A DNA stretch of 23,143 nt from a virus: IMG/VR virus record IMGVR_UViG_3300021961_000661, positions 1 to 23,143 of that record; one strand, given 5' to 3'. The position numbers and the translations under genes are program-made. The notes beneath the pieces were generated by a model. It was not told where the DNA came from, made no database searches, and saw only the letters and a program-made list of their open reading frames with translations. Every line of letters starts with the position of its first letter. Position 1 is the stretch's first letter. Below, one piece after another: positions 2,500 through 12,351 of the stretch.

Positions 2500-3934
2500 A
2501 AAAGTATTATTTGTATTACCTACGGGCGGCGGAAAAACTGAAACGTTCATTTATATGGCATTAGAATCAATTAGCAAAGGTAAGCGCGTTTATTTCTTAG
2601 TGCATAAAAAAAACCTTGTTAATCAGATTTCAGAACGTTGCAGGCGATACGGTTTAAAGCATGGATTTATAGCAGGCAATCGACCTAAACAGTATTACAT
2701 ACCTGCACAGGTTTGCAGCGTTCAAAGTTTAAAGAATCGGTTAAATGAAGTTCCACAGCCCGACTTACTTATTATAGATGAAGCGCACCACGCCAACGCG
2801 GGAACATGGAAGGATATTTTAGATTTTTACGGCGAAAAGGTTTATGTTTTAGGGGTAACAGCAACACCATGGCGCGGCGATGGACAAGGTTTGGGAGATG
2901 TATTTTCTGATTTAGTTTTAGGACCGCTGCCCGCTGAATTAGTGCAAATGGGCAATTTAGTGATGCCTGAGTATTATAACTTCAAACCGTTGGCGGATTT
3001 TACAAAGATTAAAAAAGATAAAAACGGCGAATATAAAGCGGATGACCTTTTTAAAGAAATGGACAAACCTGCGATAACGGGAAATGCTGTTGAGGAATAC
3101 AAACGTTTGGCGCCTGGCGAACCTGCAATATATAGTTGCGTAAATATTAAACATGCTGATAATGTAGCAGCGGCATTTAATGAAGCAGGTTTTAGGGCGG
3201 TTTCTATAAATGGAAACTTAGAAGATTATGAAATTAAAAAAGCGTTTGAAGGTTTGGCTAATCGCAGCATACATGTACTAACGTTTTGCGACCTTATAAG
3301 CGAGGGCACAGATATACCAGCCGTTAGCGTTGTAGGAATGTTACGCCGTACAATGTCGCTTAGTTTATATTTACAGATAGTAGGGCGTGGATTAAGACCG
3401 ATGGAAGGTAAACAACGCTGTTTAATACTTGACCACGTTGGCAATCAAAAATTACACGGGCATCCACTAATGACACGGGAATGGACATTGGAAGGGATGC
3501 AAAAGCGAAAACGCAAAGATACAGATGAACAGATTGATAATGAATACAAAGACTGTACAGAATGCTTTAGGACTTATGAAAAAACACACGCTGCATGTCC
3601 TTATTGCGGTTTTGTTGAACCTATAAAGGTTAGCGAAATTGAACAGGTTGCAGGCGTTGCTGTAAAAGATGAAACAACATTGGATGAACTATTGAAAACA
3701 AAACGTACTGAGCAGGCAAAAAGCCGAACACTTGAAGATTTATGGCAGTTAAAAATACAGCGCGGTCACAAAGACAAATGGGTTTATTTTGTATTTGAAA
3801 GTAGGGTTTTAAAAGACAAAGGTTCGATTGAATATATAAATAAAAAACATGGACTTAACGCTATTAACCGCGATGATTTAAAAGCTGCTGTATTGCGTAA
3901 ATGGAACGAATTTTATAAAACTAAAAGAAAATGA
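2423..3934 (+). CDS. SF2 DEAD/DEAH-box helicase with C-terminal zinc ribbon
   Basis: A 503-residue ATP-dependent nucleic acid translocase. Motifs in order: LRQYQ (6-10), Walker A PTGGGKT (33-39), DEAH (119-122), TATPWR (146-151), a motif V-like LISEGTDIPAV (291-301) and motif VI QIVGRGLRP (318-326). A CxxC...CxxC zinc ribbon follows (Cys378, Cys381, Cys392, Cys395). The conserved LRxYQ segment just after the start supports initiation at 2423, although this makes a 77-nt overlap with the HTH gene. No nuclease or methylase domain is fused, so it is not a complete type I or III restriction subunit. Many phages carry such a helicase for replication, recombination or transcription-linked roles. 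Its stop overlaps the next ATG (ATGA, 3931-3934). Confidence 0.9.
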   Translation: MNTIQLRQYQLKSVSDIRGSYQQGNKKVLFVLPTGGGKTETFIYMALESISKGKRVYFLVHKKNLVNQISERCRRYGLKHGFIAGNRPKQYYIPAQVCSVQSLKNRLNEVPQPDLLIIDEAHHANAGTWKDILDFYGEKVYVLGVTATPWRGDGQGLGDVFSDLVLGPLPAELVQMGNLVMPEYYNFKPLADFTKIKKDKNGEYKADDLFKEMDKPAITGNAVEEYKRLAPGEPAIYSCVNIKHADNVAAAFNEAGFRAVSINGNLEDYEIKKAFEGLANRSIHVLTFCDLISEGTDIPAVSVVGMLRRTMSLSLYLQIVGRGLRPMEGKQRCLILDHVGNQKLHGHPLMTREWTLEGMQKRKRKDTDEQIDNEYKDCTECFRTYEKTHAACPYCGFVEPIKVSEIEQVAGVAVKDETTLDELLKTKRTEQAKSRTLEDLWQLKIQRGHKDKWVYFVFESRVLKDKGSIEYINKKHGLNAINRDDLKAAVLRKWNEFYKTKRK

Positions 3935-4584
3935 AACTAACTGATAAAATAACAGTAACAAATGAGGATAACATGCAGCTAATGGCTCGTTATCCTGATA
4001 AGTATTTTGATTTGGCTATTGTTGACCCGCCTTATGGAATAGGAGTTACTAAAAATAAAAGATTAAACAATAATTCTAATAATGATTGGGATAATAAAAT
4101 ACCTTCAATAGAATATTTTAATGAATTATTTAGGGTTAGTAAAAATCAAATAATTTGGGGCGGCAATTACTTTATTGAGCATTTAAAAAATACAAGATGT
4201 TATATAAATTGGGATAAATTAAATCATTCAGATACTTATGCTGATTGCGAAATGGCTTGGACTTCTTTTGATGAAAATGCAAAAATATTTAAATATATGT
4301 GGGATGGAAATAGATATGGATTTCCAAACTTAATACAAGGTGTAGGTAAAAAAAGTATAAGAATTCACCCAACACAAAAACCTGTATCATTATATCATTA
4401 TTGTTTAACAAACTACGCCAAACCAAACGATAAAATACTCGATACACATTTAGGCAGCGGAAGTATTGCAATAGCCTGCCACGATTACGGATTTGAACTT
4501 ACAGCGTGCGAATTAGATACTGAATACTATGAAGCCGCAATAAAACGAATTAACAACCATATTTCACAACAAAAACTATTCTAA
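3931..4584 (+). CDS. DNA adenine N6-methyltransferase, beta class (paralogue 2)
   Basis: A 217-residue methyltransferase with DPPYG at 32-36 and LDTHLGSGS at 170-178, as in the gene at 1608. The N-terminal DKITVTNE...LMARYPD and the whole C-terminal SAM-binding end are nearly the same in the two proteins, and both end in KLF. The segment just before HPTQKP is different and longer here (about 125-145, with YMWDGNRYGF), which predicts a different DNA target. Synonymous sites have diverged, so the duplication is not recent. The core uses AGA for arginine and is very AT-rich. It is joined by ATGA to the helicase and by TAATG to the HNH gene, implying translational coupling. Confidence 0.9.
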   Translation: MKLTDKITVTNEDNMQLMARYPDKYFDLAIVDPPYGIGVTKNKRLNNNSNNDWDNKIPSIEYFNELFRVSKNQIIWGGNYFIEHLKNTRCYINWDKLNHSDTYADCEMAWTSFDENAKIFKYMWDGNRYGFPNLIQGVGKKSIRIHPTQKPVSLYHYCLTNYAKPNDKILDTHLGSGSIAIACHDYGFELTACELDTEYYEAAIKRINNHISQQKLF

Positions 4585-6426: not shown

Positions 6427-6797
6427 AAGAACAAAACCTATACAAAGCCCTGCAAGCTAAACATAGTAAACAAGGCATATTATTTCGTAATAATACGGGC
6501 ACAGCATACCAAGGCAGGCGCGGACTTATTAACGGCATGATTATGCTTTCAGACCCTAGACCTATAGCGTTCGGTCTTTGTGTAGGTAGTTCTGATTTAA
6601 TTGGATGGACTGAAATAATTGTAACACCTGATATGGTAGGGCAAAAAATAGCTATATTTACCGCTGTTGAAGTTAAAAACGAAAAAGGAAAAGCAACAAA
6701 GGAACAGATTAAATTTTTGCAGGCAGTTAAAAATGCAGGCGGCATAGCAAGATTAACAAGATATATTGATAACGAATTTAAAAATGATGAGATATGA
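6423..6797 (+). CDS. VRR-NUC domain nuclease
   Basis: A 124-residue single-domain nuclease of the VRR-NUC branch of the PD-(D/E)XK superfamily. The pattern is visible in order: FRNNTG (21-26), SSDLIGW with the catalytic Asp (around 58), FTAVEVKN with Glu and Lys of the ExK motif (79-86), then GKATKEQIKFLQAVKNAGGIARL, which matches the conserved GxxTxEQxxFL...GG end. Stand-alone VRR-NUC proteins are common in phage replication modules and may process Holliday junctions or flaps. It overlaps both neighbours by 4 nt. Confidence 0.88.
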   Translation: MKEQNLYKALQAKHSKQGILFRNNTGTAYQGRRGLINGMIMLSDPRPIAFGLCVGSSDLIGWTEIIVTPDMVGQKIAIFTAVEVKNEKGKATKEQIKFLQAVKNAGGIARLTRYIDNEFKNDEI

Positions 6798-8131
6798 ATA
6801 ATGAAACAAAAAAATTACAAAGCGGATTAAGAATTTTGCATATTTTATCACCTGTAAAATGGAATGGTGATACTTTTAATGCTAATTCAGATGCTAATTG
6901 GAAAGTAGCAGAAAAGACTATTAGATTTTTGCCTAATTGTCATCACTATATTTTAGTGCCACATAACCACAATATAAAAATACAGCAAGAAAATGTATCT
7001 TTCATTAAATATGATTACCCTAAAAGTGTTCAGTTAAATAGAGGGATGTTTGATTATAGACAAATAAAGTTTGATTTTACTAAATTAGATGTAGATTTTG
7101 TTTTTAATCACCAACCAGAATTAACTTATAATATTCATCAATGGTTACACACAAATAGATATTATGAAGATGTAATTTATTTTGGTTTTTACCATTGGAT
7201 TGACTGCAAACAAAGCAGAGGTAGTGTAAGTGGATGCCCTTCATTTTATATGAGGCAATTAGAAAGTATGCACATTTTAGATGCAAATTTTGTTCATTCA
7301 AATATTAGTTTAGAATATTTAAAGGGTAATTTTAAAGAATTTGATTGTTCGCATTTAATTAGCAAAGTTTATGAAATGCCTTTAAGCGGTAGGTTAGATG
7401 TTGAACCAACACCATTTAATTTGCCCAATAAAAAAATACTTTTATTTAATCATAGATGGACAGAAAGTAGTGGTATAAAAAGAATGATGGAGTATATAAA
7501 TAAATTAGATGATAGTTATTTAGTTTGGATTACAGATGAAAATTGTGATGTTAAAAACGATAAATTTATAGTTAAAAATTTGTCATATTCAGACTATGCT
7601 TATTTAGTAGAAAATTGCTATGCTTCAATATGTTTTATAGATGGCTATACTACATGGAATTTAGCCGTACAGGATGCTATAATAAAGAAAAGACCAAGTT
7701 TATTTTATGAACATAAAACAATTAGAAAAGTAGTTGGTGAAAATTATAATGGAGGATTTAAAAACTTTAATGAATTTAAACATATTTTAGAAACAAATAC
7801 TGTTGATGATTTTAATAATAGTATTATATTAGAACACGACTTTATTTTTGAATTACAATTAAAAACAGCTATGTTAGAACATTGGAAAGATACTGCAAAG
7901 AAACCAAAAGATGCAGATGCTTGGATTGATTGTATTAAAAATGGTATAACAGATAAAAAATCTATTTGCACAAAAGTAAATCCAAAAGTAAGGTTAAACG
8001 GAACTGCACATTTTATTAGAAGAAACTTGTTAAATAATGGAATAAGTGATGATATAAAAAAACCTTATACTGAATACTTTATAAAGGGAAATAATAATAC
8101 GATAAAACACGATTTATTTAGTAATATATAA
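6794..8131 (+). CDS. GT-B fold glycosyltransferase
   Basis: A 445-residue protein with two-domain GT-B architecture. The N-terminus RILHILSPVKWNGDTF (13-28) is a first Rossmann strand with an acceptor-side loop. The second domain starts at KKILLFNHRWTESSGIKR (213-230) and ends with a nucleotide-sugar-binding region, YAYLVENCYASICF (268-281), TWNLAVQDAIIKKRPSLF (287-304), typical of GT4-like enzymes. No signal or membrane segment, so it acts in the cytoplasm. Lying between a nuclease and a replication gene, it may modify phage DNA (as T4 enzymes do) or another phage or host target; no base-hydroxymethylating enzyme is visible, so the acceptor is unknown. All arginine codons noticed are AGA/AGG, unlike neighbouring core genes, suggesting acquisition. 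It starts by ATGA overlap. Confidence 0.75.
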   Translation: MNNETKKLQSGLRILHILSPVKWNGDTFNANSDANWKVAEKTIRFLPNCHHYILVPHNHNIKIQQENVSFIKYDYPKSVQLNRGMFDYRQIKFDFTKLDVDFVFNHQPELTYNIHQWLHTNRYYEDVIYFGFYHWIDCKQSRGSVSGCPSFYMRQLESMHILDANFVHSNISLEYLKGNFKEFDCSHLISKVYEMPLSGRLDVEPTPFNLPNKKILLFNHRWTESSGIKRMMEYINKLDDSYLVWITDENCDVKNDKFIVKNLSYSDYAYLVENCYASICFIDGYTTWNLAVQDAIIKKRPSLFYEHKTIRKVVGENYNGGFKNFNEFKHILETNTVDDFNNSIILEHDFIFELQLKTAMLEHWKDTAKKPKDADAWIDCIKNGITDKKSICTKVNPKVRLNGTAHFIRRNLLNNGISDDIKKPYTEYFIKGNNNTIKHDLFSNI

Positions 8132-8145
8132 TAAAACCTAAACTT

Positions 8146-8757
8146 ATGACTAACGAAGCCGAAAAACTACTTGAAGATTTAAAACAGGAAGCTATTAAAA
8201 TGGATGCTTGGTTTAAAGATGATACTAAGCGCCAAAATTACAGGCAATTAAAAGAACGGCAACTTTTGACCCTACAAAATATTATTATTGCACTTGAAGA
8301 AAAAGAACAAAGTATTTTTGAAAAGTCTATAATTTTTCCGAATAGCAAAGACTTAGAACAGGTCATTTTAGGTGCTATATTAGTAGACAATAACGCCCGC
8401 GATAAAGTTAATTTTTTAAGTCCTGAGCACTTTTATTTTGATAATCACAAACTTATTTTTGAACTTTGCCAATCGGTCGAAGTAGTAGATATAATTTCCG
8501 TGGCTGAAAAACTTAAATTCCGTTGCGGTGGCCCTGCTTATTTGGCTGAATTAACAAACCGTGTTGCAAGTGCTGCAAATTTAGAATACCATGCACGAAT
8601 ACTAATTCAAAAGCATGTACAGCGCGAATTGATAAAAACGGCTGTTGAAATGATAAACACTATAATGGCTGATAGTGAAGATGTTTTTGAAACGGTGCGC
8701 GGGCTAATGCAAAATATTAAAAAATTTAATGTAGGCAAACAAATAGTTAGACAATGA
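8146..8757 (+). CDS. DnaB N-terminal-domain protein without the helicase domain
   Basis: A 203-residue protein. After a charged helical extension (1-62), residues about 68-165 match the DnaB N-terminal domain: DLEQVILGAILVDNNARDKV, LSPEHFYFDNHKLIFE, then GGPAYLAELTNRVASAANLEYHARILIQKHVQRELI. In DnaB this domain forms the collar that binds primase. Here the protein ends after the linker-like helix (about 190), with no Walker A/B RecA domain. The P-loop ATPase gene at 9515 may supply the motor in trans, with the PAPS-reductase-like gene inserted between them. It uses many CGN arginine codons. It could be a loader, primase-binding adaptor or inhibitor of host DnaB. Confidence 0.8.
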   Translation: MTNEAEKLLEDLKQEAIKMDAWFKDDTKRQNYRQLKERQLLTLQNIIIALEEKEQSIFEKSIIFPNSKDLEQVILGAILVDNNARDKVNFLSPEHFYFDNHKLIFELCQSVEVVDIISVAEKLKFRCGGPAYLAELTNRVASAANLEYHARILIQKHVQRELIKTAVEMINTIMADSEDVFETVRGLMQNIKKFNVGKQIVRQ

Positions 8758-9503
8758 AAATATTAAGTTTTAGCGGTGGCAGAACATCGGCCTATATGCT
8801 TGCTAATTATGAATTTGATTTAGCTATTTTTTGTAATACAGGCAAAGAAGCTGAAGGCACTTTAGATTTTATTAGAAAATGTGGCGAATTTTATGATAAA
8901 GAAATAATTTGGCTTGAATATAATCCTGAAAATAAAAATAAGTTTGATATTGTAAATTTTGAAACAGCATCAAGAAATGGAGAACCTTTTGAAAAATTGA
9001 TAATTAAAAATAAATTTTTACCTAATCAACAAATGAGATTTTGCACAGTTGAAATGAAGGCAAAAACTATAAAAAGATATTTAAAAAATTATTTAAAATT
9101 AGATATAAGTGATGTTGAAATGATTTTAGGAATAAGAGCAGATGAACCAAATAGGTATTATAAATTAAAAGATTCTAATATAAACGGATGGGAAAATGTA
9201 ATGCCTTTATTTAAAGCTAATATAACTAAAAAACATATTTTTGAATTTTGGAAAAAACAACCTTTTGATTTAAATATAAATTCGCATGAAGGAAATTGTG
9301 ATTTATGTTTTTTAAAAGGTATAACAAAAAAAATTGAACTTTTAAGACAAAATCCAAAAGTTGCTGATTGGTGGATTGAAATGGAAAAAAATATAAATGC
9401 TACATTTAATAAAAATTATTCAGTTAGTGAATTATTAAAAATGTCTAAAGAGCAGTTAAATTTATTTGATAACGATATTGAATGTTTTTGTAATATAGAT
9501 TAA
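8754..9503 (+). CDS. PAPS reductase / PP-loop ATPase family protein
   Basis: A 249-residue PP-loop enzyme. The adenylate-binding motif SFSGGRTSA is at 5-13. RFCTVEMK carries Cys97, LGIRADEP (125-132) is a typical family segment, and GNCDLCF (Cys182, Cys185) and ECFCN (Cys244, Cys246) supply further cysteines that could bind a [4Fe-4S] cluster. The family includes CysH sulfate-assimilation reductases and DndC of phosphorothioate DNA modification; phage members are common but their reaction is mostly unknown. DndA/B/D/E are not in the window. The gene is AT-rich with only AGA/AGG arginine codons and is joined by ATGA to the preceding replication gene, so it looks inserted between two core genes. 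Confidence 0.82.
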   Translation: MKILSFSGGRTSAYMLANYEFDLAIFCNTGKEAEGTLDFIRKCGEFYDKEIIWLEYNPENKNKFDIVNFETASRNGEPFEKLIIKNKFLPNQQMRFCTVEMKAKTIKRYLKNYLKLDISDVEMILGIRADEPNRYYKLKDSNINGWENVMPLFKANITKKHIFEFWKKQPFDLNINSHEGNCDLCFLKGITKKIELLRQNPKVADWWIEMEKNINATFNKNYSVSELLKMSKEQLNLFDNDIECFCNID

Positions 9504-9514
9504 ATCATAAGACA

Positions 9515-11230
9515 ATGAAACAGGACAAACCAATAGACTGGGAACAAAAACCCAAACAAACTCCAAAGAAGCCGAAAGCAGAACGCGCAACAGCCGCAGC
9601 ACCTGAAACAGATAAAAAAGGCTTTATAGGTGGGTATTTTCGGCCATTAGGTTGGGGCATTGAAGACGGGCAAATGCTTTATTATTTTTATATTCGTTCG
9701 ACAATGTCGATAGTAAAGTATAAAGCTGCTGCAATAAACAAGGCTAATTTATTGAGCATTGCACCACTTGAATTTTGGCTTCTATCTTTTCCAAACCGCG
9801 ACAGTAGTAATTACGATGTTACCACGGCAGCGGATTATCTTATAAATTTTTGCAACCATGTAGGATTTTACAATACTGAAAACATACGCGGTCGCGGTGC
9901 ATGGCAAGAAAAAAACGGCGTTGTATTTCATGCAGGCCAACAGCTTATACAGGACAAAAAGCGCTACAACCTTGGCGGATTAGATACTAAATATAGCTAT
10001 GTATATAATAAGGCTATTGATATGCCTATTGAAGCGCCTTTGCTACCAACAGAAGCGGGAATGCTTCCAAAGATATTAAATAAGCTAAATTGGCAAACTA
10101 AAGCCGATGCAATATTTTTATCAGGTTGGTTAGCTTTAGCGCCTATTTCTGGTATCTTAAAATGGCGTCCACACATTTGGATTACAGGCCCGCGCGGTAA
10201 TGGCAAATCATGGGTATTAGAAAATATAGTAAATGAAATTATAGGCAATATTGCAGTAAGTGTACAGGGCACGGCGGCAACTGAGCCAGCAGTTAGGCAA
10301 AAACTAAATAGCGATGCTTTACCGGTAACAATTGATGAAGGTGAAGGAAATGATGAACGTGCGGCACAAAGAATGCAAGAAATAATAGGATTAGCTAGGG
10401 CGGCAAGTTCTGAAAAATCGCCCGCTATTGCAAAAGGTGGCAAAGATGGAAAGGCTATTGATTATTTTGTGCGAAGCTGTTTTTTATTTGTAAGCATAAA
10501 TCCGCAGTTAGTTAATGATTCTGATAAGCGGCGTTTTTGTGTTTTGGAATTAAAGAAATTAGCAGACCCGAAAATGTTTAATGAAGTTGAAAAGCTAAAG
10601 AATAAAATAATATTTGAAGACTTTGGGCCACGTTTTCAGGCGCGAATGTTAAACTTAGCTGATAACATACAAAAAAGCATAAAGCTATTTACACACGCTG
10701 TATCGCTTATAACAGAGGATAGGGCAGTAGGTGACCAATTCGGGGCACTTATGGGCGGTTGGTGGCATACGTTGCATGATGACCCTGTAACGCCCGAAGT
10801 AGCATTAGAAGAAGCGGCTACTATTTTAGACATGCGAAAATATGAAGAAGACAAAGAAGACCTAACAGATGAACAAAGATGTTTGCAGCAAATTTTAAGT
10901 CAAGAAATACGTATAGAAGCTGAAAATTACGTAGGCACAAAAACAGTTGGTGAACTTGTAGAATGCGCACACAATTATCAACCAAGTGTAAGACCATCGC
11001 AAGCAGAGGCAAACGAAAGACTAATGCGTTTAGGTATTCGCGTTATTGGTGATGATTTATTGATACTAAATAATTCAGTTTTTGTAAAAAAAGTTTTGAA
11101 TAATACGCCCTGGCAAATATCATGGAATACTATCTTATTAAGGCTTAAAGGCGCATCACGGCGAAGTAATACGCGATTTGCGGCTGGTATGTCGGGAAGG
11201 TGTGTTTCAATAAATTTAAAAAATTTATAA
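9515..11230 (+). CDS. P-loop replication ATPase (phage helicase/primase-like, DUF927-like)
   Basis: A 571-residue protein, probably the DNA-unwinding motor of phage replication. After a basic, disordered start (1-35) comes GGYFRPLGWGIEDGQMLYYFY (39-59), resembling DUF927-type primase-helicases. The ATPase core has Walker A GPRGNGKS (225-232), Walker B VTIDEGE (271-277), a sensor-like FLFVSINP (323-330) and a paired arginine RR (339-340) as possible finger. No zinc finger or TOPRIM primase centre is evident, so primer synthesis must come from elsewhere. The gene uses CGN arginine codons, like the core backbone, and follows the inserted PAPS-reductase-like gene by 11 nt. Exact family membership is uncertain. 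Confidence 0.75.
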   Translation: MKQDKPIDWEQKPKQTPKKPKAERATAAAPETDKKGFIGGYFRPLGWGIEDGQMLYYFYIRSTMSIVKYKAAAINKANLLSIAPLEFWLLSFPNRDSSNYDVTTAADYLINFCNHVGFYNTENIRGRGAWQEKNGVVFHAGQQLIQDKKRYNLGGLDTKYSYVYNKAIDMPIEAPLLPTEAGMLPKILNKLNWQTKADAIFLSGWLALAPISGILKWRPHIWITGPRGNGKSWVLENIVNEIIGNIAVSVQGTAATEPAVRQKLNSDALPVTIDEGEGNDERAAQRMQEIIGLARAASSEKSPAIAKGGKDGKAIDYFVRSCFLFVSINPQLVNDSDKRRFCVLELKKLADPKMFNEVEKLKNKIIFEDFGPRFQARMLNLADNIQKSIKLFTHAVSLITEDRAVGDQFGALMGGWWHTLHDDPVTPEVALEEAATILDMRKYEEDKEDLTDEQRCLQQILSQEIRIEAENYVGTKTVGELVECAHNYQPSVRPSQAEANERLMRLGIRVIGDDLLILNNSVFVKKVLNNTPWQISWNTILLRLKGASRRSNTRFAAGMSGRCVSINLKNL

Positions 11231-11248
11231 AAATATTTATAAAAAAAC

Positions 11249-11278
11249 TTGTTTTTATAAAAAACGGTTGTATCTTTG
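11249..11278 (+). promoter_or_regulatory. Bacteroidota-type promoter of the moron gene
   Basis: TTG at 11249-11251 is followed after 19 nt by TATCTTTG (11271-11278), an excellent match to the Bacteroidota sigma-ABfr promoter (TTTG, 19-21 nt, TAnnTTTG). It gives an expected start near 11284 and a leader of about 35 nt before the ATG at 11320. This is the clearest promoter in the window. Confidence 0.8.
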
Positions 11279-11319
11279 TATCACAATTGATTTATAACAC
11301 AACAAAAAAACTTCAAATT

Positions 11320-12075
11320 ATGAAAACGATTATCACAACTATTCTTGCAGAACTTAAAAATGAAATTCAAAACCTTGTTGATGCACATGTTGCACAATTT
11401 GAAAAAAGATTTGAAAGAAAAATGTCAAAATTTGACTTGGAAATGACTGAATTGTATATTATTGCAGATATGGTTAAATCTGTTGAAAAATATACATCAA
11501 ATGATGATTTTCTTGTTTCTGTTGTTTCATCTGTTAGCAATAAAGGAAATCTTCAAATCAATGCAATTATTGAAAGAAATGAAAAACAATATACATTGAC
11601 AACAGATGTGATTTATGCAGGTGGATACAATATTCAACAATTGCATTACAGATATATCACAAACACAAATCTCCCAAAAACAGGAAACAATGTAATGACA
11701 ACAGAATATGCAAACAAAATCAAAAAAATGACCAAATTAGAAAAATTAAATGAACAACTTGGATATGATGAAAAAACTGCTGAAAAATATTTGAACACAA
11801 TGACCAAAGCAATGAACATGACAGATGAACAAATCATTGAAGAACTTAAACAAAATGAACACAGATTATATTCAGGAAAATATACTTGGGAAAGTTTGAA
11901 TGAACAAGGGAAAAAGAATTATGGAAGCAAAGAACAATTTGAACAAAAAGCAATGAATGATTTGCAATGTGATATTGCCTATTTTAAACATTCTAACATT
12001 ATATTGCAAAAATTATATTTGAAAAGTATTAACAAAGCAATTGAAAAAACAAAAGCAAAAATTGCATCACTATAA
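11320..12075 (+). CDS. Moron-like gene of unknown function
   Basis: A 251-residue protein that I do not recognise. The N-terminus is helical and coiled-coil-like (about 1-60: LAELKNEIQNLVDAHV, FEKRFERKMSKFDLEM). A short mixed region follows (GNLQINAIIERNEKQYTLTT), then a long charged helical part ending in IEKTKAKIASL. There is no signal peptide or membrane segment. The chosen ATG follows the promoter at 11249-11278 and an A-rich leader; an in-frame start at 11200 would lie inside the preceding gene and before the promoter. The gene has its own terminator (12091-12118). Arginine is encoded by AGA and leucine mostly by CTT/TTG, unlike neighbours, indicating separate origin. A host-acting or anti-defence role is a guess from this layout. 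Confidence 0.75.
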   Translation: MKTIITTILAELKNEIQNLVDAHVAQFEKRFERKMSKFDLEMTELYIIADMVKSVEKYTSNDDFLVSVVSSVSNKGNLQINAIIERNEKQYTLTTDVIYAGGYNIQQLHYRYITNTNLPKTGNNVMTTEYANKIKKMTKLEKLNEQLGYDEKTAEKYLNTMTKAMNMTDEQIIEELKQNEHRLYSGKYTWESLNEQGKKNYGSKEQFEQKAMNDLQCDIAYFKHSNIILQKLYLKSINKAIEKTKAKIASL

Positions 12076-12090
12076 TTTATAATATAGGTT

Positions 12091-12118
12091 TACGGTAATC
12101 CTCAAACCGTATTTTTTT
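12091..12118 (+). terminator. Rho-independent terminator after the moron gene
   Basis: The perfect 6-bp stem TACGGT (12091-12096) and ACCGTA (12106-12111), with a 9-nt loop, is followed by seven T (12112-12118). It lies 15 nt after the stop codon of the preceding gene. Confidence 0.75.
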
Positions 12119-12138
12119 AACTTCAAAACTAACTACCA

Positions 12139-12351
12139 ATGGAACTAAAAATGTATTTATCTTATGATGGAACTTTAATGATTCATCAAAGAAATTCAGC
12201 AGGCAAAGACCTTTTTTTTCAAGTCGATATTTCGCGCGGTTACAACACCAACTTTTCGGATTTTGATGGCGAATATGAAGATGAATCCGACTACATAAAA
12301 GACATGAAACAATCTATTGCTAACCAATTTAATTTAGAACAAGAATCATGA
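12139..12351 (+). CDS. Small acidic hypothetical protein, 70 aa
   Basis: I do not recognise the family. It begins with strands (ELKMYLSYDGTLMIHQ, FFQVDI) and continues with a strongly acidic stretch (FSDFDGEYEDESDY); 14 acidic and 6 basic residues are visible. It begins 20 nt after the moron terminator with an A-rich leader and no clear promoter, so it may depend on read-through. Its stop overlaps the next start by 4 nt (ATGA), pairing it with a second acidic protein. Confidence 0.65.
   Translation: MELKMYLSYDGTLMIHQRNSAGKDLFFQVDISRGYNTNFSDFDGEYEDESDYIKDMKQSIANQFNLEQES

Follow-up and report, generated by a model that had tools for sequence, protein, structure and literature searches.

An exchangeable gene slot behind a conserved promoter and leader, and the AGGYNIQ protein family of one of its cargoes

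The viral DNA analysed here (IMG/VR record IMGVR_UViG_3300021961_000661, 23,143 nucleotides; this whole stretch is called the window) carries after its primase gene a locus that comparison with the sequences of close relatives shows to be an exchangeable single-gene slot with fixed expression signals. The slot covers positions 11231–12138 on the plus strand, from the end of the primase gene at 11230 to the start of the next conserved small gene at 12139, and in relatives the same borders enclose a different gene. In the window the cargo (11320–12075, plus strand) encodes a protein of 251 aa, which its ORF and an alignment identify as a long form of a large unnamed protein family, called AGGYNIQ in the following. 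Accessory-gene slots and injected internal proteins are already known kinds; new, as far as we searched, are the slot itself, the fact that these proteins form a family and, in Bacteroidota phages, the connection of this family with a capsid-targeting-like leader. An orphan gene is thereby turned into two testable handles, namely the list of slot cargoes and the leader-linked family.

The exchangeable slot and its predicted expression signals

A scan for related primases returned 52 loci, 41 of them with 86–100% and 11 with about 28–35% identity. As L197, L198, L200 and L202 end within the primase, 37 of the 41 close relatives are left, and in one of these (L193) only 139 bases follow the primase and the slot is unreadable. 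In the 36 readable relatives of these 37, as well as in the window, the first ORF lies 86–102 bases after the primase stop codon behind a common leader. By blastp the cargoes of the window and the 36 relatives fall into 20 families, the window cargo being alone in its own and the 19 others being mutually unrelated; the 36 rows are not 36 independent phages, because they include near-duplicates (e.g. L174/L175 and L176/L177) and because L170 and L195 come from one contig. The slot was never seen empty in the relatives and was always filled by another gene, with two cargoes in tandem in L172 and L204. Many cargoes have only 44–73 codons and may not all be genes, and a scan of ten other slot ORFs against Pfam and PHROGs yielded no match to a named function that passed a curated cut-off. 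The window protein had no tblastn match in any of the 52 related-primase loci, all 37 relatives included, and none in the 14 relative records that were searched whole, which argues against a known replication family universally present at this site, the outcome that the first-pass annotation had named as speaking against its own reading.

L165 is almost identical to the window in the primase end (596/600), the leader (90/92) and the next gene (205/210), whereas the first 150 nt of the cargo agree at only 42/150 positions, which is about chance, so that the two cargoes are unrelated. In L194 conservation is higher in the leader (89/92) than in the coding sequence beside it (primase 491/600). 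It is this combination of the same promoter, leader and borders with unrelated cargoes in close relatives that makes the slot exchangeable. Close relatives have thus exchanged the cargo gene as a unit, and we infer recombination within the conserved borders as the route. Cargoes also move without their leader, as L166 and L168 have an identical cargo (195/195) next to a less similar leader (60/80) and primase (427/450), and L186 and L182 have an identical cargo (309/309) with 421/450 identities in the primase. The pair L170 and L195 (cargo 105/105 identical) was dropped as evidence for transfer, since both are ends of one 46,416-base contig and a possible assembly chimera; with primases 99% and 86% identical to that of the window at its opposite ends, this contig is likely a chimera or a strain mixture.

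A putative promoter of the Bacteroidota type, TTG-N19-TATCTTTG, is located at 11249–11278 on the plus strand, with TTG at 11249–11251, a spacer of 19 nt and TATCTTTG at 11271–11278. It is followed by a conserved A-rich untranslated leader (11279–11319, plus strand), which ends with AACTTCAAATT before the ATG of the cargo gene at 11320; the stop codon is found at 12073–12075. Compared with the Bacteroidota consensus TTTG/TAnnTTTG given in PMC6847099 the −33 element reads CTTG instead of TTTG, making the promoter near-ideal and not ideal. A promoter call by motif count alone was rejected, as a scan for TTG-N18-21-TAnnTTTG gave four sites in the window, and 200 dinucleotide shuffles averaged 4.6, which is chance level. 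The promoter is above chance because it is conserved ahead of unrelated cargoes and not because of the motif count: the untranslated leader, common to relatives with other cargoes, shows 56–98% identity to the window across the 36 relatives, and with the window included the exact TAnnTTTG box is present in 13/38, TATCTTCG in 18 and TAATTTTA in 7. The almost ideal Bacteroidota promoter of the first-pass annotation thus keeps its position and its conservation, but neither a perfect −33 element nor a motif count above chance. In the nearest relatives the slot is bounded on its 3' side by a conserved gene for 70 aa (12139–12351, plus strand), the own leader of which also begins with AACTTCAAA.

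Downstream of the cargo gene a terminator-like stem-loop is predicted from sequence, fold and relatives at 12091–12118 (plus strand), consisting of TACGGT, a 9-nt loop, ACCGTA and seven T. An automated hairpin scan missed it because loops of up to 8 nt were allowed. The own terminator that had been claimed for the cassette is therefore visible as a stem-loop with a T-run, but it is weak by fold energy (RNA fold −6.8 kcal/mol, z −1.3, 26 of 200 shuffles equally stable). The same element stands behind other cargoes in 6 relatives (7/38 with the window), a different hairpin follows the cargo in 10/38 and neither of the two hairpins is present in 21/38, the window being included in these totals. 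The different hairpin of these 10 phages is a second conserved hairpin-like element, GGGG.GCAG.ATCC.ACCAACTGCAA, which replaces the terminator in L169, L172–L175, L178, L179, L188, L190 and L192.

The codon choice of the cargo gene does differ from that of the 24 other window genes, as had been noticed before: for Leu, TTA is depleted (4/22 vs 239/445, Fisher p 0.0016) and TTG enriched (9/22 vs 59/445, Fisher p 0.0018), and for Arg AGA is enriched (5/5 vs 60/209, Fisher p 0.0023). Its GC content is 27.0%, and two other window genes are lower (23.4% and 25.7%). The independent cassette seen by the first-pass annotation between replication and lysis genes corresponds to this foreign-looking unit of promoter, gene and terminator between the primase and the lysis/SSB genes, and the relatives, on which the verdict rests, confirm at the level of sequence that it is more than a chance arrangement.

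The AGGYNIQ protein family

In a tblastn search of 50,697 phage records with the window protein, BPT24_236 of Tenacibaculum phage pT24 was matched with E 4e-8, and the sub-threshold matches pf16 (E 0.3) and Kimi (E 0.9) share the motif AGGYNIQ..H. With pf16 gp150 as query short forms were found in 34 phage records. One exact motif taken from the alignment gave 382 IMG/VR loci, 80 of which were kept, and a degenerate DNA pattern for the HYRY version of the motif gave 70 loci, 55 of which (without the fusion L153) are long forms with a helical tail. Most relatives were recovered only by motif and alignment, and a single-sequence look-up with the window protein gave nothing in IMG/VR, GTDB genomes or plasmids. 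The family ranges over phages of Pseudomonadota, Bacteroidota, Bacillota, cyanobacteria and desulfovibrios and over genomes of Clostridia and Bifidobacterium; a version with a coiled-coil-like N-terminus is found in Clostridia genome loci (13/17 loci), in phages of Bacillus and Lysinibacillus, FADO among them, and on a single large plasmid of Pontibacillus. Hence the statement that the family is not recognised is true for Pfam, NCBIfam and PADLOC, although relatives are numerous. We found no mention of 'AGGYNIQ' in the papers searched and claim nothing wider from this.

The window protein is a long form, as shown by similarity along its length, by its order of helix, four beta strands and helical tail and by the invariant residues. 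The suggested search for remote homologues led to an alignment of 44 rows, composed of the window protein and 43 full-length relatives with 20–40% identity to it, and to a motif common to the whole family. Nine positions of this alignment are invariant (T95, I98, G101, G102, Q106 and H109-Y110-R111-Y112), with G101, G102, Q106, H109 and R111 belonging to the motif AGGYNIQQLHYR at codons 100–111 (11617–11652, plus strand). The beta-hairpin motif T(I/V).AGGYNIQ..H.R is common to the long, the short and the Clostridia/Bacillus forms. A profile comparison of long and short forms gave a probability of 97.7 and E 1.6e-12 over only 24 columns, and the wide family therefore rests on one motif and a similar strand order. 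The hypothetical protein BPT24_236 is homologous to the window protein along its length and was also matched by structure in BFVD (E 8.5e-14), but it is only about 20–29% identical and is encoded near tRNA and baseplate genes in a 235-kb phage.

In the AF2 model (mean pLDDT 89.5) the helical N-terminus of the window protein is followed by three strands and, beyond the motif loop with its pLDDT near 63, by a fourth strand and long helices; the model of a short form (pLDDT 89.7) shows the same strand order. Neither model had a fold match in the PDB at E <= 0.001. The best Z values of the VIA fold comparison were middling with 7.4 (long helices) and 5.2 and pointed to no function, and cystatin-, NTF2- and PUR-like fold hits were weak and not taken as relatives. 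Sequence profiles compared with the PDB gave a best E of 0.12 for one and no match for the other. For the window protein and three relatives Pfam, NCBIfam and PADLOC yielded only weak matches below the cut-off (such as StiP, NPM1-C and DUF4240), and the window protein matched none of the known anti-phage defence proteins modelled in PADLOC-DB at E up to 1. In PHROGs it matched phrog_7147 (E 0.0042), a family without known function. An obligate partner as in toxin-antitoxin pairs was considered and rejected, since each neighbour family recurs in 4 of the 45 short-form groups at most.

Fusion with a named domain was seen in a single family member, L153 (38–4915), a protein of 1626 aa that is open at the 5' end of its contig and combines PF18905 (DUF5661), an AGGYNIQ domain and an ART-PolyVal-like C-terminus, the match of the latter (E 1.3e-6, 29.7 bits) being just under the cut-off of 31.2. 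Polyvalent proteins are thought, according to PMC5512222, to enter the cell along with the DNA. This relative resembles them by its ART-PolyVal-like domain within a large protein, whereas the window protein with its 251 aa consists of a single family and a helical tail with no second known domain.

A capsid-targeting-like leader in long-form relatives

An N-terminal leader such as MNKFKTYGQFINES is present in 27 of 41 distinct complete long forms. T4 ipII and ipIII start with MKTYQEFIAEA (NC_000866), and in the T4 sequence residues 4 and 7 are described to direct proteins into the head and residues 8 and 10 to direct cleavage (PMC9026906). The leader of the long forms keeps Y/F, F, I/L and E at these targeting and processing places. 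Among 48 T4 ORFs a strict leader pattern selected ipII and ipIII only; around long forms it matched 37 family proteins and 4 others among 797 ORFs, compared with 1/1537 ORFs around short forms and 0/1341 around the window relatives. The window protein itself does not match this pattern, nor does a family member at any of the 80 short-form loci carry the leader. When the leader label is placed on a tree of 42 long forms, 4 changes are required and starred branches force 2; the window row is long-branched and of unsure placement.

The T4-type prohead protease (PF03420) was found in 12 and the T4-type capsid protein (PF07068) in 11 of 17 long-form records, which were selected by size out of a larger set, and both were found in 0/6 window relatives. 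Protease was not matched in L096 and L117, which have no leader, nor in the leader-bearing L119, L125 and L130, perhaps because these are fragments; L123, L136 and L144 possess the protease and no strict leader. Neighbours of the long-form loci include amidoligase-like proteins (34/70), S1-domain proteins (32/70) and baseplate and connector genes. Genes and leader together strongly suggest that the long-form relatives in T4-like Bacteroidota phages are packaged in the head via the leader, and they would then be injected together with the DNA.

According to PMC3012670 the internal proteins of T4 are defence proteins of diverse kinds, among which conservation is limited to the targeting sequence. 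The long-form relatives resemble IPI, IPII and IPIII (PMC3012670, PMC9026906) in the N-terminal residues for targeting and cleavage, in genomes that mostly contain T4-type protease and capsid, and, in L127 and L132, in unrelated neighbours with the same leader. In contrast, the window protein has no leader and its relatives no T4-type protease (0/6); the likeness is one of the leader, with no similarity seen in the protein bodies, and packaging of the relatives is deduced from their genes. None of the papers searched joined 'capsid targeting sequence' with 'Flavobacterium', from which nothing wider is claimed.

In L127 (1344–5550) six further ORFs with a capsid-targeting-like N-terminus according to a looser pattern lie near the family member, which itself fails the strict pattern. 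One of these leader-bearing ORFs is cytidylyltransferase-like (PF01467), and the run of six is possibly an island of injected proteins. In L132 one adjacent ORF has a start identical to that of the family member, again by the looser pattern.

A possible early role and other explanations

In our model a promoter of host type and its leader, both fixed in place behind the primase gene, would drive one swappable cargo gene, in the window a long form with a helix, a four-strand core and the invariant AGGYNIQ..H.R loop. This leaderless version would be made at once by the host RNA polymerase and would act early in infection on a host target, either for takeover or for counter-defence. Virion delivery in the large phages and a host-type promoter here would each agree with a protein that is required as soon as infection begins, from which we infer the early action of the window protein. 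We consider it fairly probable that it is an early takeover or counter-defence protein, both taken together, and regard counter-defence proper as a tentative reading. In archaeal viruses, early anti-defence genes were found among the diverse genes that share one conserved promoter (PMC11065993). Both systems place accessory genes of high diversity, most of them unrelated to each other, under a common regulatory sequence, but the archaeal viruses have many sites per genome and some tested functions, whereas here a single slot of a bacterial phage has been read from its sequence. More speculatively, AGGYNIQ could be a cross-phylum counter-defence or takeover module with two deliveries, capsid-injected in T4-like phages or expressed from a promoter slot in small phages. 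If true, undiscovered early effectors would gather at two places, in the slot and in the runs of neighbours that bear the leader. The fixed promoter and leader with 20 interchangeable cargo families represent a ready list of candidate early effectors, and the link of the leader to head packaging tells when and where the function of AGGYNIQ should be sought.

Morons are single accessory genes of odd composition with their own promoter and terminator, which lie between genes adjacent in relatives and are carried and expressed in the prophage. The cassette resembles them in its location between such genes, its own predicted promoter and terminator and its deviating composition and codons, and the first-pass annotation had regarded it as a moron expressed in the prophage and possibly blocking other phages. 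A classical moron, i.e. a gene for lysogenic conversion or superinfection exclusion read from its own promoter in an integrated prophage, is nevertheless very unlikely. The integrase (PF00589) and resolvase (PF00239) families, for which searches had positive controls in cellular genomes, were both found in 0/8 relatives of 37–46 kb, records of unstated completeness, and expression in a lysogen is unlikely for this reason. The phage group differs from moron carriers in showing no sign of lysogeny in these records, the slot differs in that promoter and leader are fixed and only the coding part changes, and long-form relatives occur mainly in large T4-like phages. Blocking of other phages is not supported either; the family pattern points rather to an action for the phage against the host. 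The window phage is a small, Flavobacterium-like Bacteroidota phage and probably virulent, 'virulent' being a deduction only because the completeness of the 37–46 kb records is not stated; the only match of its DNA to known phages is a methyltransferase stretch common to 16 Flavobacterium phage records.

An accessory gene of DNA metabolism that tunes replication would agree with the surroundings of the family gene, which follows the primase here as it does in Sphingomonas phage Kimi and lies close to genes for an ssDNA-binding protein and a helicase loader in Serratia phage 4S, to a topoisomerase subunit in PspYZU05 and to ligase and Dam in Thanatos-1. This is unlikely given its patchy occurrence (0/52 related-primase loci), its exchange for unrelated genes, the baseplate neighbourhood in T4-like Bacteroidota phages and the variation of neighbours between groups. 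Slightly more doubtful still is a structural or head-morphogenesis protein, with the long forms as internal proteins in a scaffold role and the window gene as a displaced copy: it would explain the leader, protease and baseplate neighbourhood of the long forms and recalls T4 IPIII, which affects head assembly (PMC9026906), but it fits neither the leaderless window protein and short forms nor window relatives without T4-type protease and capsid families nor the absence of the gene from near-identical phages. The shortness of many cargoes and the 21/38 loci with neither recognised terminator might also mean that the slot is filled neutrally by any short ORF, the promoter serving the downstream genes for 70 and 109 aa and the cargo being unselected. 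We think this highly improbable, because the window cargo, with its 251 aa, belongs to a family in which some residues are invariant in all 44 aligned rows and because some cargoes are nucleotide-identical in more divergent backgrounds, as recently transferred genes are.

Beside the slot that would hold this early effector, the window shows further variable or foreign-looking genes. A PAPS-reductase-like gene at 8754–9503 (GC 23.4%, AGA-rich) between a DnaB-like gene and the primase was found by tblastn in only 3/52 related-primase loci (L165, L170 and L195), and its site may therefore be a second variable slot. An ORF for 445 aa at 6794–8131 (GC 25.7%) in the replication region is another candidate foreign cargo. 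Two similar-looking DNA methyltransferase-like ORFs, as read from the ORF translations, are located at 1608–2249 and 3931–4584 on either side of a helicase-like ORF.
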